Shown piece by piece: positions 3,795 to 57,498 of a DNA stretch of 64,000 nucleotides (positions are counted from its first letter, which is position 1; each line of letters starts with the position of its first letter). Location: the NCBI RefSeq assembly GCF_000714715.1, contig NZ_JMFO01000001.1, forward strand, positions 62,001 through 126,000. The letters run 5' to 3'. A program made the position numbers and the translations under genes. Origin of the DNA: Candidatus Magnetobacterium casense (GTDB lineage: Bacteria; Nitrospirota; Thermodesulfovibrionia; Thermodesulfovibrionales; Magnetobacteriaceae). The notes beneath the pieces were generated by a model, which saw nothing but the letters and a program-made list of their open reading frames with translations, was not told the DNA's origin and ran no database searches.

Positions 3795-3948
3795 TGCCCT
3801 ATGTTGTCCAGCGCCTTAGTTATGAATGTAATTTGACAATGTAATATTATAGCATATTAAAGATGATATAATCCTCGAGTTTTCGAAAAACCTAATAAAA
3901 AATGTCTTTATTTTATCCATTATATTATGGTACAATTATTATCTATGG

Positions 3949-4141
3949 GTATCCTCTTAAAAAAGCAGGGTAAAATTTATTTCACGGTTAAAAGGCATGG
4001 ATTCCTGCTCCCTGTTCAAGCCAGGGACATGTGTCGCAGGAATGACAGTTACAGCCATTTTCCAAGTGTGTCATTCCTGGCTTGACCAGGAATCCAGGAT
4101 GCGTAAAAGTATAGTTACCATGAAATATAAAATAGGATACC
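3949..4141. mobile_element. MITE-like element A, copy 1 (intergenic)
   Basis: A roughly 193 bp non-coding element in the 384 bp gap between the histidine kinase and the ATPase gene. Its ends are GTATCCTCTT at the left and the near complement ATAGGATAC at the right. ATCTATGG flanks it at 3941-3948 and 4142-4149 as a probable target duplication, with one extra C at the right junction. The interior has two palindromes built on ATTCCTGG and CCAGGAAT. A second copy at 45013-45180 shares most of the sequence but lacks about 23 bp near the left palindrome. No ORF is present, so any mobility would depend on a transposase elsewhere. The rest of the gap is AT-rich promoter DNA. Confidence 0.8.
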
Positions 4142-24721: not shown

Positions 24722-25345
24722 CTACCACTGACCCTTCTGGATGTATCTGTATATCTGCGATCTTGACTTGCGGAACAATTCGGCAATCTCCACCACGGGC
24801 ACCCTGGCATAGAGCATGACGGCGATAGCGCGTAGTTTTAAGTCTCTGATCTGTCTGATTTTGTTAATGTTGATCTTGCGATGTCCAACAAGGGCCTCCC
24901 TTATCTCTACCAGTACTTCGTTGTAGTCTTTTGTTAGTCTTTCGTCTTCGTATTGCAGGGTTGCCTCAAATGATGAGTCCTCACGTTTGAGTATTTCTTC
25001 CACGTAGATGCAGGCCTCGTTGCACCTGATGTAGTTTCTGCATCTGTGACAGGAGTGTTTGGTGCGACTCGCTACCTGGCAACGGCGCCGAGGGGTCAGC
25101 GAGGGGCGAGCCGCCCCTAGCTCAGTCCCCCCGCTCAATCCCGTTGTGCCAGTGTTGCCAGTGGGTCCCGCTACCGGAGGACGTCGGCGCCCCCCTGTCA
25201 GAGCACCATTGAGCCGGGGGGGGTCAGCGACCCCTGGCTCAATGTCGCTGACCCCTTTTATGCCGGGGGCGGCTCGCCCTTTTTTATGCCAGGGGTCGCT
25301 GACCCCCTCGCTGCCCCCCACAGGGACTAAAATGTCAGCGTCCAC
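24722..25345 (-). CDS. HTH protein with repeat-derived N-terminal half (phage-like)
   Basis: About 207 residues from a GTG start at 25345, which has AGGAGG seven bases upstream and overlaps the stop of the loader gene by 11 bp. The C-terminal 110 residues carry a Cys cluster (CHRCRNYIRCNEAC), a helical segment, and a final helix-turn-helix (AVMLYARVPVVEIAELFRKSRSQIYRYIQKG) typical of resolvase- or terminase-like HTH units. Residues about 8-86 are almost entirely encoded by GC-rich palindromic repeats (GVSDPWHKKGRAAPG, DIEPGVADPPRLNG) and are probably unstructured. It is the last gene of a leftward three-gene replication module. A regulatory role is inferred from the HTH only. Confidence 0.62.
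   Translation of the reverse strand: MDADILVPVGGSEGVSDPWHKKGRAAPGIKGVSDIEPGVADPPRLNGALTGGRRRPPVAGPTGNTGTTGLSGGTELGAARPSLTPRRRCQVASRTKHSCHRCRNYIRCNEACIYVEEILKREDSSFEATLQYEDERLTKDYNEVLVEIREALVGHRKININKIRQIRDLKLRAIAVMLYARVPVVEIAELFRKSRSQIYRYIQKGQW
25091..25316. repeat. Cluster of palindromic elements inside the HTH gene
   Basis: At least four copies or part-copies of the core GGGGTCAGCGACCCC with its flank TGAGCC/GGCTCA lie in this stretch in alternating orientation, near 25091, 25210, 25245 and 25290. The flank AGGGGCGAGCCGCCCC also recurs. The gene stays open through all of it, adding about 75 codons. Similar elements sit in five other genes of this window. Confidence 0.85.
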
Positions 25346-26321
25346 TACCTGCCTCCTGTGGCGCCTTGCAACGGCCAACCGCTGTACTCTGTGCAGGATG
25401 TGATAACAAGCCCTTTTTAAGTATGAGCACCTTGCCCATCTCACTTATGCGCATGACAACGCTCGTACCGGTAAACTCACTGACGGCGTTAAAACTCCTC
25501 TCCACCTCTCCAAGACCGTAATTGCTGATAATGATAAGTGGCAAATTGTTTATATAACGCCTGTTTATAATAGAGTACATGGTCTTCACCGACCACCCGG
25601 TAACCTTTTCGGCCATAAAGTCATCCATGACCACAAGGGGCGCACTACAGTACTTGTCATATACGTCCCCCTCGGAGAGGGGGGTCAGCGACCCCCGGCT
25701 CAATTCGGGGTTATTAAACGTCTTTCGGATATCTGCAAGCATGTCCGATACGATGGTAAAGATGGGATAACGTGGCTCTATGGGAGCCTCCGAGTAACAG
25801 TCCCGGAAGGAGGGGGTGAGCATCCGGATATAAGCCTTTAAGATGGCTGCTGCCAGATACGTCTTTCCCGTTGCGGGCGGCCCAAAGATATACAGTCCTC
25901 CGGGGGCTTGGGGGTCAGCGCCCCCCGGCTTAATTTGTTGCGTGTGGGTGGCATCCCCTGACTGAAAGCCGTCACCGCAATGCAACCTCTGCAAGACTCC
26001 CTGCACTACCTCTGCAACCTCCCGATTCACCGAAGAGATATCCGCCGTCAAGTACCTCTGCGGCACCCCACAGCTCCTTAACACGCTGTCCATGCGTCCG
26101 CTTATCCTCTGTCGCCACTTGCGCACAATGTCCTCCTGACGCAGCATCGTAAGGGACACCTTGCAGTTGTGACACACATCGGAAACCGCAATCCACCGCA
26201 ATGTAAGCGGATTAAACCACCCCACGTCCTCCCGTCCACAACGACTGCACTTATGTGCATCACCCCTGATGCCCTCAAACAGACGCACGATATCATCCCA
26301 GAAGACCTCCGTCCTGTACAT
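25335..26321 (-). CDS. DnaC/DnaI-like helicase loader ATPase (phage-type)
   Basis: About 328 residues from ATG 26321, chosen because AGGAGG lies five bases upstream and because the longer frame overlaps the upstream gene out of frame. A zinc-finger-like region comes first (CSRCGRED, DVCHNCKVS). The AAA+ core follows: Walker A FGPPATGKTYLA, Walker B PLVVMDDFMAEK, and ISNYGLGEVE near sensor I. It resembles DnaC/DnaI and IstB loaders that place replicative helicase at an origin. Two palindromic elements (25679-25706 and 25905-25935) are in frame between core motifs. The neighbours on both sides are replication-type phage genes and the stop/start overlaps indicate an operon. Confidence 0.8.
   Translation of the reverse strand: MYRTEVFWDDIVRLFEGIRGDAHKCSRCGREDVGWFNPLTLRWIAVSDVCHNCKVSLTMLRQEDIVRKWRQRISGRMDSVLRSCGVPQRYLTADISSVNREVAEVVQGVLQRLHCGDGFQSGDATHTQQIKPGGADPQAPGGLYIFGPPATGKTYLAAAILKAYIRMLTPSFRDCYSEAPIEPRYPIFTIVSDMLADIRKTFNNPELSRGSLTPLSEGDVYDKYCSAPLVVMDDFMAEKVTGWSVKTMYSIINRRYINNLPLIIISNYGLGEVERSFNAVSEFTGTSVVMRISEMGKVLILKKGLLSHPAQSTAVGRCKAPQEAGSGR
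25679..25706. repeat. In-frame palindromic element in the loader gene (1)
   Basis: The core GGGGTCAGCGACCCCCGGCT is read in the gene as ELSRGSLTP, a different frame from the GVSDPRLN reading seen in the glucan dikinase and TolC genes. It lies before the Walker B motif. Confidence 0.85.
25901..25935. repeat. In-frame palindromic element in the loader gene (2)
   Basis: A diverged core (GGGGGTCAGCGCCCCCCGGC) is read as IKPGGADPQAPGG just before the Walker A strand, where DnaC relatives have only a short linker. Confidence 0.75.
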
Positions 26322-26343
26322 GAGGGCCTCCTGGCGTGCCTGT

Positions 26344-27033
26344 TCAGGATTGTTCGCTAACAAGTCCGATATATAGGTGAGCGTATGGGTCTGCTTCTGC
26401 TGCTTTGTTGTTTTCGACACGGGGGCGAGTTTCCTGTGTGTTTGCTCCGGGGTGTTCCCGACCGACGGCGACCCCTGACTTATTGCCATCGGAGTCGTGA
26501 TGGCATTGCGCATGGTATGTTTGCTCTGCATCGTTGCTATTGTCCTCCTTCTTGTTCTTTTTTGCTGTTGGGCGCTTAATTGAGCCGGGGGTCGCTGACC
26601 CCTTGGGCTCCGGCATATGGTTGCCGGATGATCGCTCAGACGTATTTCTTGTATTAGCTCTGTTTGCATGACCGCTAGTATTTTGATACTTTTCCCAGTT
26701 ACTGATAAATATAACTGAACCCATAGCATTGCTTGTAACATTAATAATGCCATTTTGTTCGAGCCATCTCAGCACGCTTCCGATGGTTTTTTTTGAGGGT
26801 ATACGCTCTATTCCTCGTTCATAGTGAGCCACGCCTCTGGCTATGATATCGTAACTTGTCACCACCATTCCTGGAGATACCCACATGCCCAGACCGCGGT
26901 TGGTTGGCACACACTCTGTCTTCCATCTTGCCTTCTGACGCAGGTAATAAAAGATGCGATGATACAACGGTGGCATCTGCCACACCAGGCTGTCTAACTC
27001 CCTACGCCATGCCAATGTAAAGCCTCGTTCCAT
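26344..27033 (-). CDS. Phage-type replication initiator/organiser protein
   Basis: A 229-residue protein. The N-terminal 125 residues form a winged-helix-like unit common to phage replisome organisers and DnaD-like proteins: ERGFTLAWRRELDSLVWQMPPLYHRIFYYLRQKARW, later SKKTIGSVLRWLEQNGIINV. The C-terminal 100 residues are polar, low in hydrophobics and probably disordered. They include a palindromic element at 26576-26611 read as PKGSATPGSIKRP. It lies directly upstream of the helicase loader, the usual order initiator then loader in phage replication modules. The promoter must lie in 27034-27524, shared with the divergent terminase genes. Confidence 0.7.
   Translation of the reverse strand: MERGFTLAWRRELDSLVWQMPPLYHRIFYYLRQKARWKTECVPTNRGLGMWVSPGMVVTSYDIIARGVAHYERGIERIPSKKTIGSVLRWLEQNGIINVTSNAMGSVIFISNWEKYQNTSGHANRANTRNTSERSSGNHMPEPKGSATPGSIKRPTAKKNKKEDNSNDAEQTYHAQCHHDSDGNKSGVAVGREHPGANTQETRPRVENNKAAEADPYAHLYIGLVSEQS
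26576..26611. repeat. In-frame palindromic element in the initiator gene
   Basis: The core GAGCCGGGGGTCGCTGACCC is read in a third reading frame (GSATPGSI) within the disordered tail. Confidence 0.85.
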
Positions 27034-27913: not shown

Positions 27914-29695
27914 ATGAAAGCAATTGAGACAATAGAACAGGAGATTTGCAACGTCTTTAGTATCTACGCCGGTGCCTGTCTGAAGGTGCAGAGCGACAAC
28001 GGGCAACTCCTGCCGTTTTTGCTCAACGAAATACAGCGGCTTCTGGAAGAGATAATCCGCGACATCCGCAACCAGGGCAGACTCGTCAGACTGCTGATCC
28101 TCAAGGCCAGACGCGAGGGGGTCAGCACCTGGGTGGCAGGACGCTTCTACTGGAAGACCACCACGCACTTCAACCGCTACGCCGCCATGTTGACACACGA
28201 ACCGGAGGCCACGGAGTTCATATTCAATATGACGCGGCGATTTCACAGACACATTCCCTGGGAGTTTCGTCCCGCACAACTGCACAACAACAAAAAGGAG
28301 ATCGAGTTCAACACGGCATCGGGGCTGGGGCTTGACGGCGCCATCAGGGTGGGAACGGCGGGTAAGACGGACTTTGGCAGCGGACAACTGATCCACTACC
28401 TGCACCTGTCGGAGGTGGCAAAGTGGCCGACACACACGGCCTCTGACCTGCTGACCTCCCTGCTGCAGTGTGTCCCGGATCAGCCGGAGACCGAGGTTAT
28501 CTTTGAAAGCACTGCCAAGGGGCCGTCGGGTGAGTTCTACGAACGATTCTTCAGTGCCCGTTACGTCTATGAACTCTACAGGGACGCCACCGGCAAGGCG
28601 CAGTTTAAAAGCCGTATCAACGAACGCTCCAGTGTCAGCAACGTATACAGTGCCGTTTTTATCCCGTGGTTTGTCTTTGACGGTTATCGTCTGGATGGTG
28701 GTCAACCACTGGAGGGGTCAGCGAGGGGCGAGCCGCAATCTTGTCGCAGCGGGTCGCACCCGCCCCTGGCTCAGTCCCCCGGCTTAATATTGAATGAAGA
28801 TGAATCGGCGCTGAGGGACATCTGCGGTGTGGACGAGGCACAGTTGCTGTGGCGCAGGCAGGCCATCGAAAACCGTTGTGGGGGCGATATCCTCCGATTC
28901 AGGCAGGAGTATCCGGCCTCTGCCGTGGAGGCATTTGTCAGCACCAGTGCGTCGGTCTTTAACACGCAGAAGATTCTGAGACTGATGGCCGATGCCAGGG
29001 AGCCTGCGCAGAGGTACGAGTGTGAGTTGGGTACGGGGCAGTGGCGTCCGGCAGCCGATGGCAGGTTGCGTGTGTGGGAGGAGCCTGTTGCGGGCGGGCA
29101 ATATCTGATCAGTGCGGATGTCTCCGAGGGGCTTGAGGGGCATGATTACTCCTGTGCCGAGGTCATCTGGCGTCCGGTATCAGGGGGTAAAGGGCAGGTT
29201 GCGCATATGGCCAGACAGGTGGCCGAGTGGCATGGGTTTATCGAACCTGACCTCTTTGGCGTGCTCCTGGCACATCTGGGTGGGCGCTACAACAATGCAT
29301 GGTTGGTGCCGGAGAGGAACAACCACGGCCTTACCACCATCACAAAGCTCGTGGAACTCAACTACCCACGCATATACTCGGAGATGGTGCTGGTGCCTCC
29401 GGTTAAGCCAAGGAGGCGGCTGGGTTGGCTCAGTACCAGGACCAGCAAGGAACTTATCATCAACAACCTAATCGCAGAAATCAGGGACGACTGCCACGGC
29501 ATTGTCAGCAGGGAGGTCTTTGAGGAGATGCTAACCTTTATCAGGACTCAGGGTGGGCAATGTCGTGCACAAAACGCAATGCACGACGACCGTGTCATGG
29601 CAATGGCCATTGGCAGGTTTGTCTGCTCAAAGCTGCCACCTCTGACACACACACAACAACGCGGGGTTGTTATATCGACAGAGGCATGGACATGA
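27914..29695 (+). CDS. Phage large terminase (ATPase-nuclease)
   Basis: A 593-residue DNA-packaging motor subunit. The ATPase part has a Walker A-like KARREGVST (residues 64-72), Walker B-like YLHLSEVAKW (162-171) and the coupling motif ESTAKG (198-203). The nuclease part has ISADVSEGLEGHDYS (about 396), VPERNNHG (about 465) and HDDRVMAMA (about 557), giving the acidic residues of an RNase H-like fold. Length is complete. A 77 bp palindromic element (28713-28789) lies in the linker between the two domains without breaking the frame. No portal, protease or capsid gene follows, which is unusual for a functional prophage. Confidence 0.9.
   Translation: MKAIETIEQEICNVFSIYAGACLKVQSDNGQLLPFLLNEIQRLLEEIIRDIRNQGRLVRLLILKARREGVSTWVAGRFYWKTTTHFNRYAAMLTHEPEATEFIFNMTRRFHRHIPWEFRPAQLHNNKKEIEFNTASGLGLDGAIRVGTAGKTDFGSGQLIHYLHLSEVAKWPTHTASDLLTSLLQCVPDQPETEVIFESTAKGPSGEFYERFFSARYVYELYRDATGKAQFKSRINERSSVSNVYSAVFIPWFVFDGYRLDGGQPLEGSARGEPQSCRSGSHPPLAQSPGLILNEDESALRDICGVDEAQLLWRRQAIENRCGGDILRFRQEYPASAVEAFVSTSASVFNTQKILRLMADAREPAQRYECELGTGQWRPAADGRLRVWEEPVAGGQYLISADVSEGLEGHDYSCAEVIWRPVSGGKGQVAHMARQVAEWHGFIEPDLFGVLLAHLGGRYNNAWLVPERNNHGLTTITKLVELNYPRIYSEMVLVPPVKPRRRLGWLSTRTSKELIINNLIAEIRDDCHGIVSREVFEEMLTFIRTQGGQCRAQNAMHDDRVMAMAIGRFVCSKLPPLTHTQQRGVVISTEAWT
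28713..28789. repeat. Long palindromic element inside the terminase gene
   Basis: About 77 bp, read as EGSARGEPQSCRSG followed by HPPLAQSPG. A near-identical element at 34389-34466 in the glucan dikinase gene has the same orientation relative to its gene and the same reading frame. Both end in the CTCAGTCCCCCGGCTTAAT-like flank. Confidence 0.9.
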
Positions 29696-29730
29696 AATCA
29701 CTACGGGCGTATCTCCTTTATATTTCACGG

Positions 29731-29803
29731 TAAAAGAAAGAAGGAGGGCGGCTCCGCCCCCTCCTCAGACCTCCCCTGCAAGGGGGCCAGCCCCCTTGAC
29801 CCC
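29731..29803. terminator. Dispersed GC-rich double hairpin between convergent genes
   Basis: The same two stems as at 24633: GGGCGGCTCCGCCC and AAGGGGGCCAGCCCCCTT. It lies between the terminase gene and the convergent DUF167 gene. On the minus strand a CTTCTTTCTTTT tail follows the first stem, so it can act in both directions. Confidence 0.65.
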
Positions 29804-29849
29804 ATTATTCTTAACCCTAATGTTCTAAGCATTTATGCTCCGTTATTTA

Positions 29850-30152
29850 TTATATGGAGTCTATGCCTGTTATTTCGACAAGCTTGTTTTTTGACTTTTT
29901 GCCTTTGATAATCCTGATATCGGATTTTTTGATCCTTGCGGAGGCGTCCCTGGATTTGATGTGCTTACAGAGCAGTTCGACAAGTAATTTGTTGGCCTGT
30001 CCATCGACGGGGGCGGCCGTGACCCTGATGCGCAGAACACCATCAACACAGCCAACAACCTCGTTGCCGGCAGCACGCGGGATCACCTTTATACTCACAA
30101 CAATGCCTGTAGCACTCTTGTTATAACACGGCTGCATGTTAAACTCTGACAC
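29850..30152 (-). CDS. UPF0235/DUF167 family protein (YggU-like)
   Basis: A 100-residue conserved small protein. The family signature VVSIKVIPRAAGNEVVG at the N-terminus and RIRVTAAPVDGQANKLLVELL in the middle are clear, with a final strand KSKNKLVEI. Its biochemical role is not known. The start is GTG at 30152 with AGGTGAT just upstream; an ATG five codons inside is possible. It stands alone, with the DUF262 gene upstream on the same strand after 87 bases. Confidence 0.92.
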   Translation of the reverse strand: MSEFNMQPCYNKSATGIVVSIKVIPRAAGNEVVGCVDGVLRIRVTAAPVDGQANKLLVELLCKHIKSRDASARIKKSDIRIIKGKKSKNKLVEITGIDSI

Positions 30153-30239
30153 ATATCACCTATAATTTTGCACTTTTCGGTTTATAAAAAAATGCGAAAG
30201 TACAGGATTGTATCATAAATTCAAGAATTGTTTGTTGTC

Positions 30240-31994
30240 CTATGTTACACCCAGAAGGTGTTTTAATTGATTACGAATCAGATATTTTCGTTCTTCGATA
30301 AAGTTCATGAAATTACTTAAGGAAAGATCAACATCAGGGATGTAATGCCGTTTCCTATAGCTATCTTGCATATCTTTAGTTGGGTTATTCCCTCCAAACC
30401 AATCCGCAAACGCTGTATCGTTTTTTTCCTGATTAGGAATGCCTTCCAGAAGTTGCAGATTTGGAAGTGTGTTCACATGCTCAATGTAAAGCTCTGTATC
30501 ATTGTCACGAATTCCCCGTCGGCGTAACTTGGTACGAGTAAAATGACTAAAGGGATGAATATGATCGATATGGAAGTTGTTCCTAAAATCCAATGAAGGA
30601 TAAAGCAAAGCAAGGGTCGAAAATGTGTAAGTTTGATCGTATCTATAGTCAAGTATGAGTTCTATATCATCATCCACGAAAGATAGAGACTTGTTTGTTC
30701 CTTTGAATTTATCTATGATTTCAGTTAATGGGAATCCGTTATGGGTCTCCTTCAAAATTTCTCGTATTGGACGTAGAACCGAATCAGGCGTACCACCGAA
30801 AACCCGCTTTATCAATGAAAGAATTAACCATTTCTGGATTGCTTTACGCTCCCCTGAGTACTTTTGGGCTACATCAAAATTTGCCGGAGAACCAATCTTT
30901 TTCATATAATATGCTATCGGTATGACGGCATAGTTTGAGGTAAGCGTATTCCGGCAATATCCAAGACCTGACACCAGAGTAACCGCTTTAAGTAAGGCTT
31001 GTGTTATTTCATCCCATTGTTGTTCAATCTTTCGCATATTGGTCTTGTTGAAATTATCAACTTTAAATGCAATTTCTGTAAAATCGCTTAAGACAAGACT
31101 GCTCTTGAGAACAAAATCCTTATCAAAATTGAAACCGTCACCGATGTCATTAAGTTGGTCTACCAAAGCGGTTACTTCCTCTCTCGCATCTCGCTCTTCC
31201 CATTGAGCAGTTGCCGTTGATAAAAGTAAGTCAGAGTAACTTAGAGTGGTACCTCCGCTGTTGATCCTTATAAAGATATTCAACACCTTATGTAAACTTG
31301 TATCTCTCTCGAGGAAATAATTAATCACTGGTTTTTCGTGTATTATCGACCATAGCTTGAAAAGTGCCTCATTGGCAAAAATTGCCTGCTCCTCTGGTCT
31401 TTGCATGAGTTGCTGGTTAATCATGTACGTATTAACCGATGCTTGATTTTTAAAGCTCAAGATATGACCGACCATGAACCAGAAAGCCCCCTCGTCATGT
31501 TGATTAGCTTCTTGATCTGTAAGAAATGCGAAATCAAACTGCATGTCGATTTGATCGTTGCCCTCGTATGGAGATAGCAGGTTTAGGTAGAGCTTTCTGG
31601 CAGGAAAAGCCAAAGGATTGTTCCATCTTTTTCTCGGTTCTTTATAGGCATAAGAACCCCTAAGACCAATGTATAGAGAAGTCAAACGCTGTTGACCGTC
31701 AAGAACTCCAGTGATGTCATCCTGCCCGTTTAGATTAGCTTTTGCATTATGACAATTGTCTCGTTCATGATATTCACGGACGAATTCATAGAACTGATAT
31801 TTGTCAGTATTGTTTCTTGTCACATACCAAAAGAGAAAAGAACCGATTGGATAGTCGCGCATCAATGAATCGAATAAGCATACTATCTGGTCAGTATCCC
31901 AAACAACCTCTCTTTGGATAGCAGGGAGCAAGTACTTCTTGGTATGAATGTTATCAACTGCTTCTTTCACTGTTATTGGCGTTTGAAATGCCAT
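30240..31994 (-). CDS. DUF262/DUF1524 GmrSD-type nuclease-like protein
   Basis: About 584 residues. The N-terminal DUF262 domain resembles ParB/sulfiredoxin folds and shows LPAIQREVVW, DGQQRLTSLY (D101) and YPIGSFLFW. The C-terminal region carries an HNH-like motif, FHIDHIHPFSHF, near residue 475. This is the arrangement of GmrSD type IV restriction enzymes, which hydrolyse NTP and cut modified phage DNA. GmrSD-like proteins are also found as stand-alone defence genes. ATG 31994 was preferred over 32000 because the AGGAGG site is six bases from it and abuts the other. The gene lies beside the phage-like island and several MITEs. Confidence 0.82.
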   Translation of the reverse strand: MAFQTPITVKEAVDNIHTKKYLLPAIQREVVWDTDQIVCLFDSLMRDYPIGSFLFWYVTRNNTDKYQFYEFVREYHERDNCHNAKANLNGQDDITGVLDGQQRLTSLYIGLRGSYAYKEPRKRWNNPLAFPARKLYLNLLSPYEGNDQIDMQFDFAFLTDQEANQHDEGAFWFMVGHILSFKNQASVNTYMINQQLMQRPEEQAIFANEALFKLWSIIHEKPVINYFLERDTSLHKVLNIFIRINSGGTTLSYSDLLLSTATAQWEERDAREEVTALVDQLNDIGDGFNFDKDFVLKSSLVLSDFTEIAFKVDNFNKTNMRKIEQQWDEITQALLKAVTLVSGLGYCRNTLTSNYAVIPIAYYMKKIGSPANFDVAQKYSGERKAIQKWLILSLIKRVFGGTPDSVLRPIREILKETHNGFPLTEIIDKFKGTNKSLSFVDDDIELILDYRYDQTYTFSTLALLYPSLDFRNNFHIDHIHPFSHFTRTKLRRRGIRDNDTELYIEHVNTLPNLQLLEGIPNQEKNDTAFADWFGGNNPTKDMQDSYRKRHYIPDVDLSLSNFMNFIEERKYLIRNQLKHLLGVT

Positions 31995-32033
31995 AGACAT
32001 CCTCCTTAAGTTTCAATTACGTTTTTACACTTC

Positions 32034-32218
32034 CAGGGCTAATTTGTTCTCCGTGGCCGTTGCCCATCCCACCCTCCCCTAGCCCCTCCCATAAAGGGAG
32101 GGGGATTGCGCTAGTGTCTCATAAATTTCCCTCCCCTTGTGGGAGGGATAAAAGGGAGGGGGTCATTCTAAAAAAACAGCCTGCAATCTTGATCTTCAGA
32201 CAGAACAAATTAGCCCTG
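32034..32218. mobile_element. MITE-like element C with 17 bp perfect ends and 9 bp target duplication
   Basis: The ends CAGGGCTAATTTGTTCT (32034-32050) and its exact complement (32202-32218) enclose 185 bp. TTACACTTC is duplicated at 32025-32033 and 32219-32227. The interior is made of CCCTCCC/GGGAGGG palindromes, one of which recurs at 54675-54716. No ORF is present. Perfect ends and an intact target duplication suggest a recent insertion. Confidence 0.88.
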
Positions 32219-32305
32219 TTACACTTCTGAGTCTCTTGAAAATATGACACAAAAGCAATTATCATACAAAAAAATACCGTTTATTATCAGTGATTTCTAA
32301 TATAT

Positions 32306-32420
32306 GGGTAGCACCACAATCAACCGTGGTTACCAGTATTTTAGCCACTTGTATATTTTCGTAGTATGGCATTGTTACTGTGCTTAAGCGATGTGACCAC
32401 GCCAGACTGGAGTGCTACCC
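32306..32420. mobile_element. MITE-like element B, copy 1
   Basis: The ends GGGTAGCAC and GTGCTACCC enclose 115 bp; TATAT flanks both sides (32301-32305 and 32421-32425). The interior shares the words GTAGTATGGCATT and GCTTAAGCGATGTGACCACG with the copy at 51306-51419. Confidence 0.82.
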
Positions 32421-32631
32421 TATATTTTTGCACCTTTCATAATTAAGATAAACATTGTGCTCAGGGTAACATAAAAAATAATCTGTTGTCAACAGTCAGT
32501 CACGGTTAATTTGTTCTCACGTCATGCCCTTAAAGTATGTGACGAATATTGTGATCAAGTTTTAGTATTTTCTTTGCTACACAACGTATACCCTTCGAGT
32601 TTATAATACCAACGGCAAATCGTCTAAGGAA

Positions 32632-32728
32632 GGGGTCAAGGGGGCTGGCCCCCTTGCGGGGGGGTTCTAAAGGGGGGCCAGGAGCGTCCTGGAGCGACAA
32701 AGAAGCGGAGCCGCCCCTTTCTTTCTTT
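32632..32728 (-). terminator. GC-rich hairpin cluster after the glucan dikinase gene
   Basis: On the minus strand, just after the stop at 32735, the region reads as GGGGCGGCTCCGCTTC, then the CGCTCCAGGACGCTCCTGG palindrome, then AAGGGGGCCAGCCCCCTT. It is probably a terminator. It combines both short-repeat families in one place. Confidence 0.6.
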
Positions 32729-32734
32729 GTATTG

Positions 32735-35700
32735 CTACAACATCTGTGCGCGGCTCTGGACAACGTAGTATGTGCCCTTGCAATAGGCACCCTCTATGTC
32801 CTGAGGCGATCCCGTGATGTCTTCAATAGATATCCCTATCTCTGCAATGGCACGCATTAGCCCCTCCTGAAATTGTTTATCCCATAGCAGCGGCTCATCG
32901 GCATAGTCGAGGACGACCTCCCTGGATGCCGGTAACAGGATGCTGTCATACAGTCCCGCCCCCGCATACCCCATGAGGTCTTCAGCGTTTGTGTCGGAGC
33001 GAAATATCAGTCCGCTTCTTTTTCGCTCCAGGACGCTCCTGGCTCCATACAGTCCTACCCCCTTGCTTGGGTAAAAGATGGGCGACAGGGTCTTGTCTGC
33101 CTTGTTGCAGGTAAAGCTCAACGCCCGACCCGGGAAGTTACCCACCAGCGTTTCGCCAAGCCCCAGGACGACTTCGGCATATAGCTCATCTCTGCTGTTG
33201 TTTAGGGGGTTTAGCGTGTGGATGACAAATGCGTACTCTGCCTCGATAACCCCCTGGATGAGGACGGCCATGGAGAGTGCCTCATGCGGTATGCCCATGT
33301 TTCTGCGACTGAGGTATGCACGCTCATTCCATGCGGAGGCATAGACCTGCTTGATACAACGCCATCCTTCGGTCCAATCATCGGGAGGCGATATCCCCTC
33401 TTGCTGCATTGTATCAGTGAGTGCCTGAAAGAGGGCATCGGGTGGGGTTAGCGACATGATGGTTTGCTTGATGGCGTCCAGGGCTGCCGTTAAACACTGG
33501 TCTGTTGTAGCCAGGGCGTTCACCTGGTTGTCGTAGAGCCTCTTGACGTCGGCATTGACGGGGAGTTGCATCAGGTGATCGAATATGCCAAAGGGGATAA
33601 CCACAGATGCCGGTGTGTGAATCCAGTTTGGGAGTTTGTCCCTGAGCGCTGCAAGGTTGTTGGACTTGAGGCCTGCCGTTGCGGCGCTGAATTGCCCGGA
33701 TGTCAGGGCGTATGTCTCAAATGCGTTATTACGTGGAGTCAGCGATATCTGGTGGCGTGCCTCTGAGTGTTGTGCAGAGGTGGCATCCGGATTAAGCCGG
33801 GGGTCGCTGACCCCTGTCGCTGTATCCTCAAATAATACCTCTCCGGCAGCCGTAACCAGGAGGTTCAGGCAATGCCCCTTAAACGACTTCAGACGCTCTA
33901 TGACATCTTTATTGTAGCAGGTGGCAAAGAGCACCGCACCGTTTCGTGCCCTGACCCCAAGGTGGGAGACAACATCTATGTTATTGGCCGATATAATGGC
34001 CGTTACCCCCTTTGGAATTTCCTCGTCCCCTACCACCTTGTCGGTTATTATAATCGTGGATGAGTTAAAGGTCGAGTGTGTGACCCTGTGCAGGGTGTCA
34101 ACGACTTCCACCGTACCAACGGCGTTGTGTCGGCTGATGACCTGCCACTGTGGAAGTATGCCCTGCTTCAGGAGTACCGTTTCAAGGTACTGCAACAGCA
34201 GCGACAGGGCAAAGATCAGGCGGGTGCGTATGACTTCTTCCGTAAAGAGGTTAACCGTCCAGGAGTCGGCGTTAAAGGCCTTGCCGAGGAACTGGGCGTT
34301 GTCGTGAAACATCCTGTAGTATCTGTCAATGAAGCTACCCAGGAGGCGCTTGAGGCGTTCCAGGATGGCAAGGCAGTGATACCGCCACATTGAGCCAGGG
34401 GACTGAGCCAGGGGCGGGGGCGCCCCGCTGCGACAAGATTGCGGCTCGCCCCTCGCTGACCCCTCGTTGTCCTGAAACGACAACCTGCCAAGGTGTCTGG
34501 AGCAGGCCCTGAGTTCATCGGTTGTGTTGGTAAAGAGGATGTTTTCCACCACTATGCCAATCAGGCGTGTAAGCTCCTCTATGCCCATGTGCTGGTTTAC
34601 GTTTCGCTCTATCAGCATCCGGAGGTGTTCCTCCAGCGCCAGGGATAGAAAAAGCAGGTCTCTGACCCGTTTGCGGTCCCGTTCGGTATTCAGACGCAGG
34701 GCGATCTCTCTGCACACCTCCGTGATGGCAGAGGCAACACTAAACAGTGACAGTTCTCTGTTGTGCAGGATTGAGTGCAGCTTGTGTTGGGCGCTATGGT
34801 CGAAGAGGTACAGGGCTGCATTGGTTGCCCTGTAGAGGTCTGTGCCTGAGTGAACGGCCTTGAGGGTATTGAGGTAGTTGCCAAAGTCGTGCAGCAGGGC
34901 ATCCTTGAGGTGTGGTACGAAGTCCGGGGGAGTTTTGATGGGGCGTTCGAAACCGGCAAGCCTTTCCCTGTTGATCCCGGCTGCCATGAGCGTGGAGTAG
35001 AACACGTCGTGGTTGCCGTTGCTGTGGAGGAACTGTATGTACGCCTCACAGATGGCGATGTCATCGGCGGTTGTGTTGTTATGCAGCTTCTGGTGCCACT
35101 CTTCGAGGAAGTGTCCCGTGACTTCTTTTATTCTGTGTCGGTGCATGATCTGCAGGATTTCGTCACGGATGCGTTGTCCGTCTCCGCCGGCGCCGAGTGT
35201 GGTCATCATCAGTGTGATGATTTCGTGCAGGTCTGATTCGTTTATGAACTTCTCTGCCAGTTTGAGTGTCAGACGCTCAACGGAGTGACTGAGTTCCCTG
35301 GGTTGGGTGTTGTAGTTACGTTGCCAGTCTAGTTGTCGGAGGAACGAGTAACGCAGCCAGACAAATAGCAGGCTGAAACCCACCCCGCGCAGGCCATCAC
35401 AGAGGTCGTGGCAGAGGTTGAACCTGTGCATGAGAGTCCAGGAGTGGTTGCCCATTTCGCCGTTTATGATCCGCTCGGCGATGTGCAAAAGCCCTTCGTC
35501 CTTGAGTGTGGACCCCGTCTGAGTGTGCGATACAAAGGGGACCTGATAGTTCTTGCCGTGGTTGTTGTCCCAGCGGTTTTCCTCGGGGAAGAACAGGACA
35601 AAGGACAGGACGCTAAACCCCATGTCCCTGGCAATCCTGATGGTAAGTTTACCCCCGGAGTGGTTGGGTTGAAAGGGGCTTTGTATGGCCGTGTGCTGGA

Positions 35701-35899
35701 ACGGTACGCTCTCCTGCGGCCAGTAAGGTTGCGGTGGCACCTGCCACTTGGCCCATCTGTTGGCACACAGCCCCCAGTGCAGGAGACACTTGCGCGGGTA
35801 CTGCAAGGACAGCCGCAGTTCAATGTGGTCATCCAGCTCATGACTCTCAACTAGCAGCTTGATGGCCCTGTCAATGTTTATTTCGTGTGACGTCGTCAT
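32735..35899 (-). CDS. Alpha-glucan water dikinase (GWD-like)
   Basis: A 1054-residue homologue of plant GWD. The enzyme phosphorylates glucose units of starch or glycogen-like glucan, using both beta and gamma phosphates of ATP. A CBM45-like segment comes first (CLLHWGLCANRWAKWQVPP). The next signature is EEWHQKLHNNTTADDIAIC, then LKAVHSGTDL. The phosphohistidine is probably H646 in DVVSHLGVRARNG, exactly as in plant enzymes. The C-terminal ATP-grasp part has AEVVLGLGETLVGNFPG, FRSDTNAEDLMGYAGAGLYDS and QDIEGAYCKGTYYVVQSRAQ. Three in-frame palindromic elements interrupt it between conserved blocks. Glycogen synthase lies 19 kb away. A GC-rich hairpin follows the stop. Confidence 0.92.
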   Translation of the reverse strand: MTTSHEINIDRAIKLLVESHELDDHIELRLSLQYPRKCLLHWGLCANRWAKWQVPPQPYWPQESVPFQHTAIQSPFQPNHSGGKLTIRIARDMGFSVLSFVLFFPEENRWDNNHGKNYQVPFVSHTQTGSTLKDEGLLHIAERIINGEMGNHSWTLMHRFNLCHDLCDGLRGVGFSLLFVWLRYSFLRQLDWQRNYNTQPRELSHSVERLTLKLAEKFINESDLHEIITLMMTTLGAGGDGQRIRDEILQIMHRHRIKEVTGHFLEEWHQKLHNNTTADDIAICEAYIQFLHSNGNHDVFYSTLMAAGINRERLAGFERPIKTPPDFVPHLKDALLHDFGNYLNTLKAVHSGTDLYRATNAALYLFDHSAQHKLHSILHNRELSLFSVASAITEVCREIALRLNTERDRKRVRDLLFLSLALEEHLRMLIERNVNQHMGIEELTRLIGIVVENILFTNTTDELRACSRHLGRLSFQDNEGSARGEPQSCRSGAPPPLAQSPGSMWRYHCLAILERLKRLLGSFIDRYYRMFHDNAQFLGKAFNADSWTVNLFTEEVIRTRLIFALSLLLQYLETVLLKQGILPQWQVISRHNAVGTVEVVDTLHRVTHSTFNSSTIIITDKVVGDEEIPKGVTAIISANNIDVVSHLGVRARNGAVLFATCYNKDVIERLKSFKGHCLNLLVTAAGEVLFEDTATGVSDPRLNPDATSAQHSEARHQISLTPRNNAFETYALTSGQFSAATAGLKSNNLAALRDKLPNWIHTPASVVIPFGIFDHLMQLPVNADVKRLYDNQVNALATTDQCLTAALDAIKQTIMSLTPPDALFQALTDTMQQEGISPPDDWTEGWRCIKQVYASAWNERAYLSRRNMGIPHEALSMAVLIQGVIEAEYAFVIHTLNPLNNSRDELYAEVVLGLGETLVGNFPGRALSFTCNKADKTLSPIFYPSKGVGLYGARSVLERKRSGLIFRSDTNAEDLMGYAGAGLYDSILLPASREVVLDYADEPLLWDKQFQEGLMRAIAEIGISIEDITGSPQDIEGAYCKGTYYVVQSRAQML
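33012..33047. repeat. In-frame palindrome in the glucan dikinase gene (C-terminal)
   Basis: CGCTCCAGGACGCTCCTGG is read in the gene as GARSVLERKRSG. In plant GWD the flanking motifs (YPSKxxGL and IFRSDxNxED) are joined by only a few residues, so about nine residues look inserted. Confidence 0.75.
33789..33817. repeat. In-frame palindrome in the glucan dikinase gene (middle)
   Basis: The core is read as TGVSDPRLNPD just after the phosphohistidine domain. The GVSDPRLN octapeptide is identical to that in the TolC-family protein at 53789. Confidence 0.88.
34389..34466. repeat. Long in-frame palindromic element in the glucan dikinase gene
   Basis: About 78 bp nearly identical to the terminase element at 28713-28789 and read in the same frame (EGSARGEPQSCRSG, then PPPLAQSPG). 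Confidence 0.9.
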
Positions 35900-44800: not shown

Positions 44801-45402
44801 ATGTTTACAGTCTTTCTTGATACCAGTGCCTTGCCGGCGTTTTTTAACAAAAAAGATAAAAACCATACGGCAGCAATGGAGGTCATGACAGTTATAAAAA
44901 AACAAAGAACAAAAATGGTATCAACCAATTTTATTTTTGATGAGGCTCTCACTTTGTGTTTAGCCAGAACTAACCATGAAATAGCTGTAAAAATGGGAGA
45001 GTTTGTTTTAAGGTATCCTCTTTAAAAAGCAGGGTAATTTTTATTTCACGGTTAAAAGGCATGGATTCCTGCTTTCGCAGGAATGACAGTTACAGCCGTT
45101 TTCCAAGTGTGTCATTCCTGGCTTGACCAGGAATCCAGGATGCGTAAAAGCATAGTTACCATGAAATATAAAGAGGATACGTTTTAAGCAGTAATGTAAT
45201 AGAGTTTGTGTGGCTTACCGAGGAACTTCAAAAAGAAGCATGGGGGTATTTTAAAAAGTATAGCGATAAAATTTATTCCTTTACCGACTGTACCAGTTTT
45301 GTTTTGATGAAAGAAAAAAATATCTTGGAGTATTTTTCGTTTGACGAAGATTTTAGACGGGCAGGGTTTACGGATTTTTACGAAAGATGTAAAGAAAGTT
45401 AA
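44801..45402 (+). pseudogene. PIN-domain toxin gene (VapC-like) split by a MITE
   Basis: The first part (44801-45025) begins MFTVFLDTSALPAFFN, with the first PIN Asp, and includes FIFDEALTL with the Glu. The second part resumes after 45189 and holds the acidic FTDCTSFVLM and FSFDEDFRRAGF. Removing the MITE at 45013-45180 and one copy of the GTTTTAAG duplication joins the two in one frame (VLSSNVIEFVWLTEE). The rebuilt protein is about 142 residues, the normal length for a PIN RNase. As it stands the first part ends in four foreign codons (RYPL) and a stop, so the toxin is probably inactive. Confidence 0.9.
45013..45180. mobile_element. MITE-like element A, copy 2, inserted in the PIN toxin gene
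   Basis: 168 bp with perfect 11 bp ends GTATCCTCTTT / AAAGAGGATAC and a perfect 8 bp target duplication GTTTTAAG (45005-45012 and 45181-45188). The interior carries the same ATTCCTG palindromes as copy 1 at 3949. No ORF. Confidence 0.95.
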
Positions 45403-50602: not shown

Positions 50603-51256
50603 TTACTTTGCAAATGCCCGAAGGATGACAATCATAACTGCTATCTGCCCTATCCAGAACAGAAACATCCACTTGGTGATATCTGCTTTAGTCTCTGAGA
50701 GTTTTTGCTCTAATTTGGCGACTTCAGTGGTGATACGCTCATTGAGTCTTCCTTCCAGCGCCACCATCTCTGTCCTCAATGCCGCTGACTCGGCCTTCAT
50801 CTCAGTCCTTAACGCCGTTGAGTCGGTTTTCATCTCAGTCCTTAACGCCGCCATCTCAGTCCTCAATGCCGCTGACTCGGCCTTCATCTCAGTCCTTAAC
50901 GCCGTTGAGTCGCTTTTCATCTCAGTCCTTAACGCCGTTGAGTCGCTTTTCATCTTACCTTCCAGCGCAACGAATTCAGACTTTAACGAGTTTTCCAGCG
51001 CCACGATGTCGGCCTTCAACGCCGTTGAGTCGGTTTTCATCTCAGTCTTTAACGCATTTGAGTCGTTTTTAATCTTGCCTTCGAGGATAATCAGGTCGGC
51101 CTTTAATGAGCCTTCCAGCGCCATCAGGTCGGCCTTTGTTGCCATCTCGGTTTTTGCATGTTCGGCCACATCGTCAATTGCATCGATGATGGCAATAGTC
51201 CCATCTTCCCCAATTTTGTCCTTGAGCAGGTTATACAGTTCTATCTTTCTATACAT
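50603..51256 (-). CDS. Coiled-coil protein with C-terminal membrane anchor
   Basis: A 217-residue protein. After a globular start (ELYNLLKDKIGEDGTIAIIDAID), residues about 40-170 are an almost perfect run of 11-residue units of the form LRTEMKSDSTA, interrupted by seven-residue units (LRTEMAA). This pattern gives a right-handed or mixed coiled coil. A final hydrophobic segment (WMFLFWIGQIAVMIVILRAF) anchors it, as in DUF1640/CCDC90-type proteins. Repeats are conserved at DNA level in 33 bp units, so repeat number may vary between strains. The function is unknown. Confidence 0.75.
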   Translation of the reverse strand: MYRKIELYNLLKDKIGEDGTIAIIDAIDDVAEHAKTEMATKADLMALEGSLKADLIILEGKIKNDSNALKTEMKTDSTALKADIVALENSLKSEFVALEGKMKSDSTALRTEMKSDSTALRTEMKAESAALRTEMAALRTEMKTDSTALRTEMKAESAALRTEMVALEGRLNERITTEVAKLEQKLSETKADITKWMFLFWIGQIAVMIVILRAFAK

Positions 51257-51305: not shown

Positions 51306-51419
51306 GGTAGCACCACAAACAACCGTGGTTGCCAAGATTTAAGCCACTTTTATATTTTTCGTAGTATGGCATTATTACTGTGCTTAAGCGATGTGACCAC
51401 GCCGAACTGGAGTGCTACC
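51306..51419. mobile_element. MITE-like element B, copy 2
   Basis: The ends GGTAGCAC and GTGCTACC enclose 114 bp. The internal words AACCGTGGTT, GTAGTATGGCATT and GCTTAAGCGATGTG match the copy at 32306-32420. No target duplication is evident. Confidence 0.8.
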
Positions 51420-53206: not shown

Positions 53207-54565
53207 TCACCGGGTTTGTCCCATCGCCTTTTCCAGATTTGCCTGTGCTATCTTGTAATCGGTTATTGCCTGTACGTAGGCGGTGTTTGCGTTTCCGTAG
53301 GAGACGTCGGCATCCGTTACCTCGATGGGATTGCCCACGCCGGCGGCATATCTGCCGTTTGCGATGTCGAGGTTTTCCCTAGCCTGTCTGACCGTCATGG
53401 CGGCAGCGGAGATGGCCTCCTGCGCCGACATGAGCTGGAGGTAGTACTGCTGCACCTCCACGATAATGCTCTGCCGCAGGGCAGCTTCGTTGGCCTTGAG
53501 GACGTTGAGGTTTGCCTGTGCTTCTTGTATCTGATGCTTGGTCAGGTAGCCACTAAATACTGATATCGACGCCTGAGCACCAATGTTCCAACCGCTGTTA
53601 AGAGGAAAGGACTCTCCACCCCACGTGTAGCCGGCACTGCCCGAAATGGTTGGGTAGTAGTCCTTCTTTTTGAGTTCGATGGTCTGTCGGGCGGCCTCTT
53701 GCTTGGTTATGATGGTCTTCAGGTCTGCCCTGTTCTTAAACGCCTGCTCGATTATGTCGTCGAGCGTGACTTCATAGGGTTGAAACACATTGAGCCGGGG
53801 GTCGCTGACCCCGAGGTTGTCCTCAACCAGATAGTCCCGTGCATATGGCAGTCCCATTGCATTGTTGAGGTTGATCCGTGCCAGTTGCAGGGCGTTTTCT
53901 GCCTTTATGCGGTTGAGTCTGGCGTTGCTGAGGTCCACTTCGGCCTTTGTGACGTCAAACTTTGCTTTCTCCCCCACTTCGTAGAAGCCTCTGGCCTGTT
54001 TCAGGTGCTGCTGGAACTGTCCAACGGTTTCATTTGCAATATCGAGGTTCTTTATTGCCTGAAGCAGCGTGTAGTAGGCCTGTTTGACGTTGTAGACGAC
54101 CTGCACGGTGGCACTCTTGAGGTCTGAGTCAGAGGCATCGGTGTTAAGACGCTGGATGTCTGCCTGGGTCTTGATCCGTCCGAAGTCGTAGATGTTTTGC
54201 TTTGCCGTGGCGGTGTTTGTGAACTGGTTATACGACCCTGACGGGCCTCCGCCGGAGACGGGTGCGTATCGGCTGTAAGCGGTTGAGACATCCACCTGGG
54301 GATAGTTTCCGGCCAATGCCTGGGCTATCTTGCTCTGGTTTGCCATAACGGTGTATGAGGCGGCAATGATGTTTGGCTGATTCTTGATGGCTATGTCGAT
54401 GCACCTGTCCAAGGACAATGTCTCTCCCGCTGAGATAACCGGTGCCCCACCGCCGTCATTGCGCCGGGGGGAGTCACGGTCGGCAGCGTCCGCTAAAAGG
54501 CACACTGGCGGCGTCAACAACATCATGCCCGTTAATATCAATATGTATACGCTTGTAAGTTTCAC
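53207..54565 (-). CDS. TolC-family outer membrane efflux protein
   Basis: A 452-residue outer membrane channel with a signal peptide (residues 1-27). Two repeated helical halves are visible: SLDRCIDIAIKNQPNIIAA then the YNQFTNTATAKQNIYDFGRI and TKAEVDLSNARLNRIKAENALQ segments, and again ITKQEAARQTIELKKKDYYPTISG and YGNANTAYVQAITDYKIAQANLEKAMG. It exports substrates together with an inner-membrane pump and adaptor, none of which lies nearby. A palindromic element at 53788-53813 adds NLGVSDPRLNVF just before the second half. Confidence 0.93.
   Translation of the reverse strand: MKLTSVYILILTGMMLLTPPVCLLADAADRDSPRRNDGGGAPVISAGETLSLDRCIDIAIKNQPNIIAASYTVMANQSKIAQALAGNYPQVDVSTAYSRYAPVSGGGPSGSYNQFTNTATAKQNIYDFGRIKTQADIQRLNTDASDSDLKSATVQVVYNVKQAYYTLLQAIKNLDIANETVGQFQQHLKQARGFYEVGEKAKFDVTKAEVDLSNARLNRIKAENALQLARINLNNAMGLPYARDYLVEDNLGVSDPRLNVFQPYEVTLDDIIEQAFKNRADLKTIITKQEAARQTIELKKKDYYPTISGSAGYTWGGESFPLNSGWNIGAQASISVFSGYLTKHQIQEAQANLNVLKANEAALRQSIIVEVQQYYLQLMSAQEAISAAAMTVRQARENLDIANGRYAAGVGNPIEVTDADVSYGNANTAYVQAITDYKIAQANLEKAMGQTR
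53788..53813. repeat. In-frame palindrome in the tolC-like gene
   Basis: TTGAGCCGGGGGTCGCTGAC is read as GVSDPRLN in the gene, the same octapeptide in the same frame as at 33789 in the glucan dikinase gene. It falls in the linker between the two halves, where length variation is tolerated. Confidence 0.9.
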
Positions 54566-56496: not shown

Positions 56497-57498
56497 TCAA
56501 CGTATACGCTTCATAATGTCTGCAACGTTGTCTGACTTGCGGATATACTCTTTTATCTTTTTTAGGGTAGCAATGTTATCGACCTTTTTTATCTGTTCCA
56601 GCAGGGCCAGGCCATCATCACCAAACTTAATATCAAGCGCAAGCTCTATACCTTCCACCAATCCCTTCTTTTCGCCCTTCTTTTCACCTATTTTTTCGCC
56701 CTTCTTTTCGCCTATCTTTTCGCCCTCTGCCATCCCCTTTGCCATCCCCTTTTCCATCCCCTGGCGAAACCTTATATCCCTCTCTATGTCATATGTTAAT
56801 GCCATCTTCTCTATCTCCTTACATATATACTCTTGCAAATCCCTTGTCAGCGACATTACCTCTATCTGTTTTATATACTTACTGCGAAGCGTTTCCTCAC
56901 TTACGAAGTCCCTGATGCGCTGAAGCAGTTCCGTCAAATATACCTCGGCTCCCTTGCCCTGAAGATTACACAGCATCGATATGATCATCTCCTTAGGCCT
57001 GGTTGAATACAAAAACTGCTCACAATCAATCTTTCTCATATCTATCAGATTATACCGATAGTTTACATCCGGCTCAACGATTATATCTGACATCGTTAGC
57101 GGCTTGTTCCCAATATAGAAGACATACTGTATCACGGGAAGTTTATGTATCTGCGTCATGTGACACCAGTATCTCAGCATCCTGTAGACCATATCTGCAT
57201 CATTGGTCAGTTGAAACTCTATGTGAATAATGACAGTCTCTCCCTGCACCGTAACCACCCTTAACAGGAAGTCGGCCTCCCTCTCATCGGTAACCTGCAT
57301 CTTGCTATCTATGCTGGTGACACTTACAACGTCTATCTTCATCACCTTTGAGATCAAAACGTCAACCACATCACGCATGGTCTCCTTGATTATCCTGTCA
57401 TACTGCCCTGACATCCTGTCTATAGCATACACCATTTGCACCTGCTTTGACAACCACGGTGAGTCTGGTGCCAACCATTCGATGTGGAGAGACCTCAA
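56497..57498 (-). CDS. Rpn/PD-(D/E)XK family putative nuclease
   Basis: Up to 333 residues; the first TTG (57498) has no ribosome site and the true start may be the ATG at MVYAIDRMSGQYDRII. The N-terminal part fits the Rpn/DUF4351-like family: DEREADFLLRVVTVQGETVIIHIEFQLTND contains the PD-(D/E)XK-like acidic residues, here HIEFQ in place of ExK. It resembles recombination-promoting nucleases. The C-terminus holds a Gly/Lys/Glu repeat (EKIGEKKGEKIGEKKG), usual for these proteins and possibly variable in length. Such genes are often multicopy and mobile. Confidence 0.8.
   Translation of the reverse strand: MRSLHIEWLAPDSPWLSKQVQMVYAIDRMSGQYDRIIKETMRDVVDVLISKVMKIDVVSVTSIDSKMQVTDEREADFLLRVVTVQGETVIIHIEFQLTNDADMVYRMLRYWCHMTQIHKLPVIQYVFYIGNKPLTMSDIIVEPDVNYRYNLIDMRKIDCEQFLYSTRPKEMIISMLCNLQGKGAEVYLTELLQRIRDFVSEETLRSKYIKQIEVMSLTRDLQEYICKEIEKMALTYDIERDIRFRQGMEKGMAKGMAEGEKIGEKKGEKIGEKKGEKKGLVEGIELALDIKFGDDGLALLEQIKKVDNIATLKKIKEYIRKSDNVADIMKRIR

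Follow-up and report, generated by a model that had tools for sequence, protein, structure and literature searches.

How did nearly the same 75 nucleotides come to lie, in the same reading frame, inside two unrelated genes? The question is raised by a 64,000-nt stretch of Candidatus Magnetobacterium casense DNA (hereafter the window; positions 62001–126000 of contig C1 in assembly G000, a 3.4-Mb Nitrospirota genome in 70 contigs, 92% complete). A repeat finder applied to the window detected an inverted pair of 77 nt, 95% identical, at 28712–28788 (plus strand) and 34389–34465 (minus strand). The first copy is located inside a terminase-like gene (27914–29695, plus strand; assigned by PHROGs), the second inside an alpha-glucan water dikinase gene (32735–35899, minus strand; assigned by Pfam). 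The inserted part comprises 75 nt, at 28714–28788 (plus) and 34389–34463 (minus), with 71 of 75 positions identical, which bears out the near-identical, same-frame element of the preliminary description, although its coordinates were off by 1–2 nt. The whole 77-mer has only two matches in the assembly (E-values 1.9e-34 and 4.9e-29), and partial matches were found at 44 further places (E up to 10), which together exclude a chance origin. We propose, with a probability of about 0.8, that a mobile hairpin repeat of very small size, nonautonomous and compatible with coding, gave rise to the shared 75 nt by nesting.

The basic unit of this repeat is 24 nt long and consists of a 15-nt hairpin (6-bp stem and 3-nt loop) followed by a 9-nt unpaired tail, YGGCTYAAT; its consensus is GGGGTCAGCGACCCCYGGCTYAAT. 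No terminal inverted repeats were found at its two ends, which are formed by the hairpin and the unpaired tail. The point at which a second unit enters the first is marked in GGGGTCAGCGA^CCCCYGGCTYAAT. As read from the sequence, the 75-mer has the layout GGGGTCAGCGA / GGGGCGAGCCGC / AATCTTGTCGCAGCGGGTCGCACCCGC / CCCTGGCTCAGT / CCCCCGGCTTAAT, with layers of 11, 12, 27, 12 and 13 nt. Its outermost parts, once joined, make up a 24-nt unit, GGGGTCAGCGACCCCCGGCTTAAT, the second-layer parts make up another, GGGGCGAGCCGCCCCTGGCTCAGT, and at the centre lies a 27-nt unit whose opposite strand reads as hairpin GCGGGTGCGACCCGC with tail TGCGACAAGATT. All nesting stages are present within the window, including 24-nt units (starting at 33791, 25681, 25911, 26579, 25220 and 53789), a two-layer 48-nt intermediate at 25092–25139 (plus strand), where GGGGCGAGCCGCCCCTAGCTCAGT is enclosed between GGGGTCAGCGA and CCCCCCGCTCAAT, and the 75-nt composites. 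The unit at 25220–25243 (plus strand) belongs to the same phage-like cluster as the 48-nt intermediate. Nesting is also found in two larger repeats, L026, in which a 27-nt unit is interrupted precisely by a 24-nt unit, and L021, in which the interruption measures 25 nt, one extra nucleotide. The earlier suggestion of a longer composite of a shorter element is thus confirmed. Since both 75-mers contain the identical three-layer nest, the composite was probably copied as a unit.

In both genes the composite is read in the identical frame and encodes EGSARGEPQSCRSG[SH/AP]PPLAQSPG (for example, EGSARGEPQSCR in the dikinase). This agreement is weak evidence for frame selection, because stop-free frames are few (three in the terminase copy and four in the dikinase copy) and two copies would agree by chance roughly 1 time in 4. 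Between the two 75-mers there are four differences, T41G, A45C, C67T and T72C. Through the first two, a G-C pair replaces a T-A pair in the inner hairpin and Ala-Pro replaces Ser-His, both changes being nonsynonymous; according to the codons read from the sequence, C67T is synonymous and T72C nonsynonymous, giving a total of one synonymous and three nonsynonymous differences. Because two of the three nonsynonymous differences represent one compensatory base-pair exchange, it is the hairpin structure that is conserved and not the encoded peptide, and the synonymous comparison that had been recommended as a check offers nothing in favour of peptide selection. At the two stem pairs that the search left free, 11 cells were changed on both sides, none of 500 shuffles attained the observed covariation score, and slid controls stayed near zero; the pairs seen were T-A, C-G, A-T and G-C at one of these positions and C-G, G-C and T-A at the other. 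These patterns indicate that the stem is conserved through compensatory changes. Single 24-nt and 75-nt units fold only slightly more stably than shuffled sequences (z from -0.9 to -1.4), so that the structural argument rests on covariation and not on energy.

The insertions are best seen against their empty counterparts in related genomes. The dikinase gene is closest to those of uncultured Nitrospirae bins (81, 80 and 71% protein identity), and the proteins of the relatives (L061–L063) lack exactly 25 codons, with flanks that can be aligned on both sides. At the DNA level the insertion amounts to 75 nt at CAACGA^GTGG, the flanks are intact in L061 and L062, and no target duplication was found at this site in comparison with the relatives. 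The absence of the dikinase copy from three relatives with 71–81% protein identity, together with the shared nest, which fits copying, upholds the idea of a recent spread of one copy. The terminase orthologue from G003 is of the length that a gene lacking the 75 nt would have. Among the genic 24-nt sites, same-genus orthologues are about 8 codons shorter at the site, and clean orthologue alignments show a gap of exactly 24 nt at four of them, namely those of the outer-membrane efflux protein (TolC/OEP), a GspJ-like protein (named from its N-methylation motif and neighbourhood only), a PepF-like protein and the short unit of the dikinase. The latter unit (33791–33814, minus strand, read GVSDPRLN) is absent in L062, and the efflux unit (53789–53812, minus strand, also read GVSDPRLN) is exactly the 24 nt that orthologues L189 and L197 lack. 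For o594 and o642, 8 codons are missing in at least one relative each. No target-site duplication was found at the clean empty sites, and none of the compared orthologues carries a unit at the same site, hence the insertions are specific to this lineage. On the evidence of these alignments, the units appeared in genes after the species had split from its genus relatives, and insertion at the clean sites was precise and duplication-free. The proton-antiporter orthologue of o694 in G002 (L219, contig C5) holds a different, longer GC-rich in-frame repeat at the same loop. From this it seems that tolerance is a property of the site and not of the inserted sequence.

The genome-wide census was based on pattern and similarity searches and on the stretches around their matches. 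The pattern GGGGTCAGCGACCCCNGGC with up to 2 mismatches has 74 matches, and GGGGNNNGCNNCCCCNGGC has 91; the reversed control has none. In the retrieved stretches, matches to the tail (NGGCTYAAT) are of two kinds: 28 are preceded by stems of 5–6 pairs, and the others mostly by unrelated sequence. Intergenic copies are mostly contained within longer mosaic repeats, and free-standing copies are mostly genic (12 of about 15). At least 20 or so intergenic mosaic repeats (L003–L030, e.g., L004 at 1431–1620) were noted, with ends like ATGGGGTCAAGGGGACTTCTTCGTGCCCGGGG and several hairpin modules, including the 27-nt unit. The 12 genic copies, a minimum for this genome, reside in genes for DnaC-like (two copies), DnaD-like, outer-membrane efflux, dikinase, GspJ-like, GspL-like, RimO-like radical SAM, M3 peptidase and repeat proteins, and for two membrane proteins of the proton-antiporter type. 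Within the window, the DnaC-like helicase-loader gene (25335–26753, minus strand) has one unit at 25681–25704 (plus strand, thus in opposite orientation, read LSRGSLTP) and another at 25911–25934 (plus strand, read IKPGGADP) just before the Walker A motif. The DnaD-like gene (26344–27033, minus strand), in turn, has a unit at 26579–26602 (minus strand, read GSATPGSI), which overlaps the 5' part of the open DnaC-like frame.

The genic copies are spread over all five stop-free frames (GVSDPRLN, 3; GSATPGSI, 2; GQRPLAQ, 1; LSRGSLTP, 4; IEPGVADP, 2), with six in the same and six in the opposite orientation relative to the gene. There is no departure from uniform use of these frames (Monte-Carlo P = 0.82), and none of the 12 copies uses the sixth, stop-containing frame, as expected if broken genes are lost; the chance of that outcome is 0.11. 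The preliminary description had proposed selection for a frame or a tolerated peptide, and had named equal use of all six frames as the observation that would speak against it. Even use was indeed found for five frames, the sixth being unusable on account of its stop codon; by that same test, selection on frame or peptide is not supported. With regard to target choice, pre-existing dyads (hairpin loops) are not enriched at the genic sites (P = 0.63), and 14 sites yielded only a slight excess of C at -4/-3 and of T at +2, which does not make a convincing target motif.

A distribution survey of 396 sampled Nitrospirota genomes, allowing up to 1 mismatch, detected the unit with its tail in three, all of them from this genus. 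The shorter hairpin pattern extends to other genera of the family, but the 21 genomes surveyed from other families of the order have no match. The 24-nt unit was not found in viral contigs, and an Rfam scan of the 24.5–36.5 kb region of the window revealed no RNA family. Within the genome, 8 of 18 free or composite copies fall within a 9.4-kb part of contig C1 that harbors phage-like genes and the dikinase; elsewhere, two further pairs of copies lie within 2 kb, and these pairs alone have a simulated P of about 0.0009. This clustering may stem from copying over short distances or from a target property that the sites have in common.

The units insert into one another, as the progression from 24 to 48 to 75 nt shows, and the composite was probably itself copied to produce the second 75-nt copy. 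Each of these lengths is divisible by three and most frames are free of stops, so that the insertions would add 8 or 25 residues to tolerant loops and survive, presumably with no selection on peptide or frame. The most tentative step concerns the copying machinery, which may recognize the single-stranded hairpin and work mainly over a short range, given that the copies are clustered within kilobases. Candidate agents are replication-linked copying and a trans-acting enzyme; the former, acting on single-stranded hairpins, would fit the clustering. It is conceivable, although the odds are somewhat against so broad a claim, that this 24-nt hairpin is among the smallest known mobile DNA units, has spread through genes and intergenic repeats in one Nitrospirota genus by short-range, duplication-free copying that is neither bound to a transposase in the usual sense nor frame-selective, and by its multiple-of-three size provides proteins with new segments of 8 or 25 residues.

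Several points weigh against the mobile-hairpin interpretation. Adjoining copies are often different variants, which speaks against very recent local copying, and the clustering is therefore not a matter of simple recent duplication. Because the search pattern prescribed the outer four stem pairs, only the inner two test the structure. Same-genus orthologues vary in the terminase linker, so that a 75-nt insertion is compatible with this site but less cleanly seen there. For o385, o694 and RimO the exactness of the insertion is not demonstrable because the surrounding loops also vary in length, and the orthologue comparison left out the DnaC-like and DnaD-like copies. Finally, the relatives are species representatives only, so that the choice between insertion and loss rests on several relatives that all lack the unit, and movement is deduced from these comparisons.

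The unit could alternatively be a repetitive extragenic palindromic (REP)-type element moved by a Y1 (HUH) tyrosine transposase, either a REP-associated tyrosine transposase (RAYT) or an IS200/IS605-like enzyme, which would recognize the hairpin in single-stranded DNA and leave no target duplication. Both the hairpin and the absence of target-site duplications agree with such a scenario, and Y1 genes are patchily present in some relatives. We nevertheless regard it as unlikely, as the assembly with most copies has no PF01797 match (an absence that is not final at 92% completeness), the same-genus genomes G001 and G003 have none and G002 only a fragment, the presence of Y1 genes in relatives does not correlate with unit copy number, and the unit lacks a GTAG/CGTC tag and is mostly genic, not extragenic, when free-standing. 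Less probable still is RNA-mediated spread, in which the hairpin would be copied from RNA by a reverse transcriptase, such as that of one of the two diversity-generating retroelements (DGRs) of this genome. Two DGR-type RVT_1 genes are present, and the conservation of the stem is compatible with an RNA or single-stranded DNA intermediate. However, no DGR reverse transcriptase is known to place new sequence at other sites, no link was found between the DGR loci and the units, and the strong local clustering is not suggestive of a free RNA intermediate. The two DGR-type open reading frames, L291 (G000 C10:40281–40964) and L292 (C3:180054–180737), have a template-like repeat fused 5' of the reverse transcriptase; the L291 template differs from the nearby Lcl_C variable repeat by 24 substitutions, 22 of which are at template adenines.

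One-frame selection for a tolerated peptide, analogous to that of the in-frame Rickettsia palindromic elements (RPEs), would explain the common frame of both 75-nt copies and the avoidance of the stop-containing frame, the latter not being rare by chance in 12 copies. It is contradicted by the use of five open frames and both strands, and the 75-mers differ mainly by nonsynonymous, structure-preserving changes, which leaves this explanation highly improbable. Equally little credence can be given to ordinary recombination or gene conversion of one 75-nt segment between the two genes with no mobile element involved: the copies lie in inverted orientation just 5.6 kb from each other, but identity stops within 2 nt of the unit boundaries, and the 24- and 48-nt forms also occur by themselves at many other places, with precise empty sites, a distribution that contradicts exchange between two genes.

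Our best reading is that the mobile hairpin works like the small dispersed repeats (SDRs) of cyanobacteria and the RPEs. The SDRs of Nostoc and its relatives, described by Elhai et al. in 2008, are reportedly 21–27 nt long, form hairpins with compensatory changes, are nested within one another and within other repeats, and appear mobile without a known enzyme. The unit resembles them in its lengths of 24 nt (from the empty-site alignment) and 27 nt (from the sequence), which fit the SDR range, in a hairpin supported by compensatory changes at two inner pairs, in nested self-insertions (the 24/48/75 series, L026 and L021), and in its apparent mobility with no known enzyme. It differs by its occurrence in Nitrospirota instead of cyanobacteria, by many copies within protein genes as 8-codon insertions, and by a GC-rich GGGG..CCCC stem with the YGGCTYAAT tail. 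Whereas SDR5 is cited in PMC4390886 as inserting precisely inside HIP1, no fixed target of this kind was seen for the unit. The RPEs are Rickettsia-specific and 105–146 bp long (PMC2229807; also PMC3733652). Like them and the Wolbachia palindromic elements (WPEs), the unit is a palindromic repeat found in frame within conserved, presumably functional protein genes, but it measures 24, 48 or 75 nt and occupies five frames in both orientations.

In the two large super-families, REPs bear GTAG/CGTC tags and lie largely outside genes (PMC3733652, PMC3116915). These elements and the REPINs are, similar to the unit, palindromic dispersed repeats of about 20 nt; in contrast, the foot of the unit's hairpin bears neither a GTAG nor a CGTC tag, no PF01797 Y1 transposase is present in this (incomplete) assembly, and free-standing units are mostly genic, the copies embedded in larger repeats being intergenic. 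Miniature inverted-repeat transposable elements (MITEs) span about 70–300 bp, end in terminal inverted repeats and are usually flanked by target duplications (PMC3733652, PMC2229807). Bacterial MITEs such as Correia, ERIC, RUP and YPAL are likewise nonautonomous and dispersed, some of them forming in-frame fusions, whereas the unit has no terminal inverted repeats and no target duplication at clean empty sites. Identity with REP/RAYT elements or MITEs was rejected on these defining features (tag, Y1 transposase and extragenic location for the former, terminal inverted repeats and target duplication for the latter).

No paper on repeats in magnetotactic Nitrospirota was found in the literature collection that was searched. 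To our knowledge, the movement of repeats shorter than 30 nt is known mainly from one cyanobacterial group; the present genome would be a second, apparently independent case from another phylum. Owing to its clean empty sites in conserved genes, its nesting series and the restriction to one genus, the mechanism, be it enzyme-, RNA- or replication-driven, is testable by strain comparison. The genic copies further show that protein genes can accept segments of 8 or 25 residues with no sign of selection on the peptide sequence.

Several other features of the window were noted. Blocks of 62 nt (95% identical) and 98 nt (98%) are repeated at 3948–4131 and 45012–45172, 41 kb apart, and are unrelated to the hairpin unit. 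A 64-nt repeat with 95% identity is found at 32356–32419 and 51356–51419, 19 kb apart, and tandem-like repeats with spacings of 33 nt and 12 nt occupy 50766–51125 and 56663–56724. Between the phage-like genes and the dikinase there is a gene for a GmrSD-type restriction endonuclease (30240–32000).

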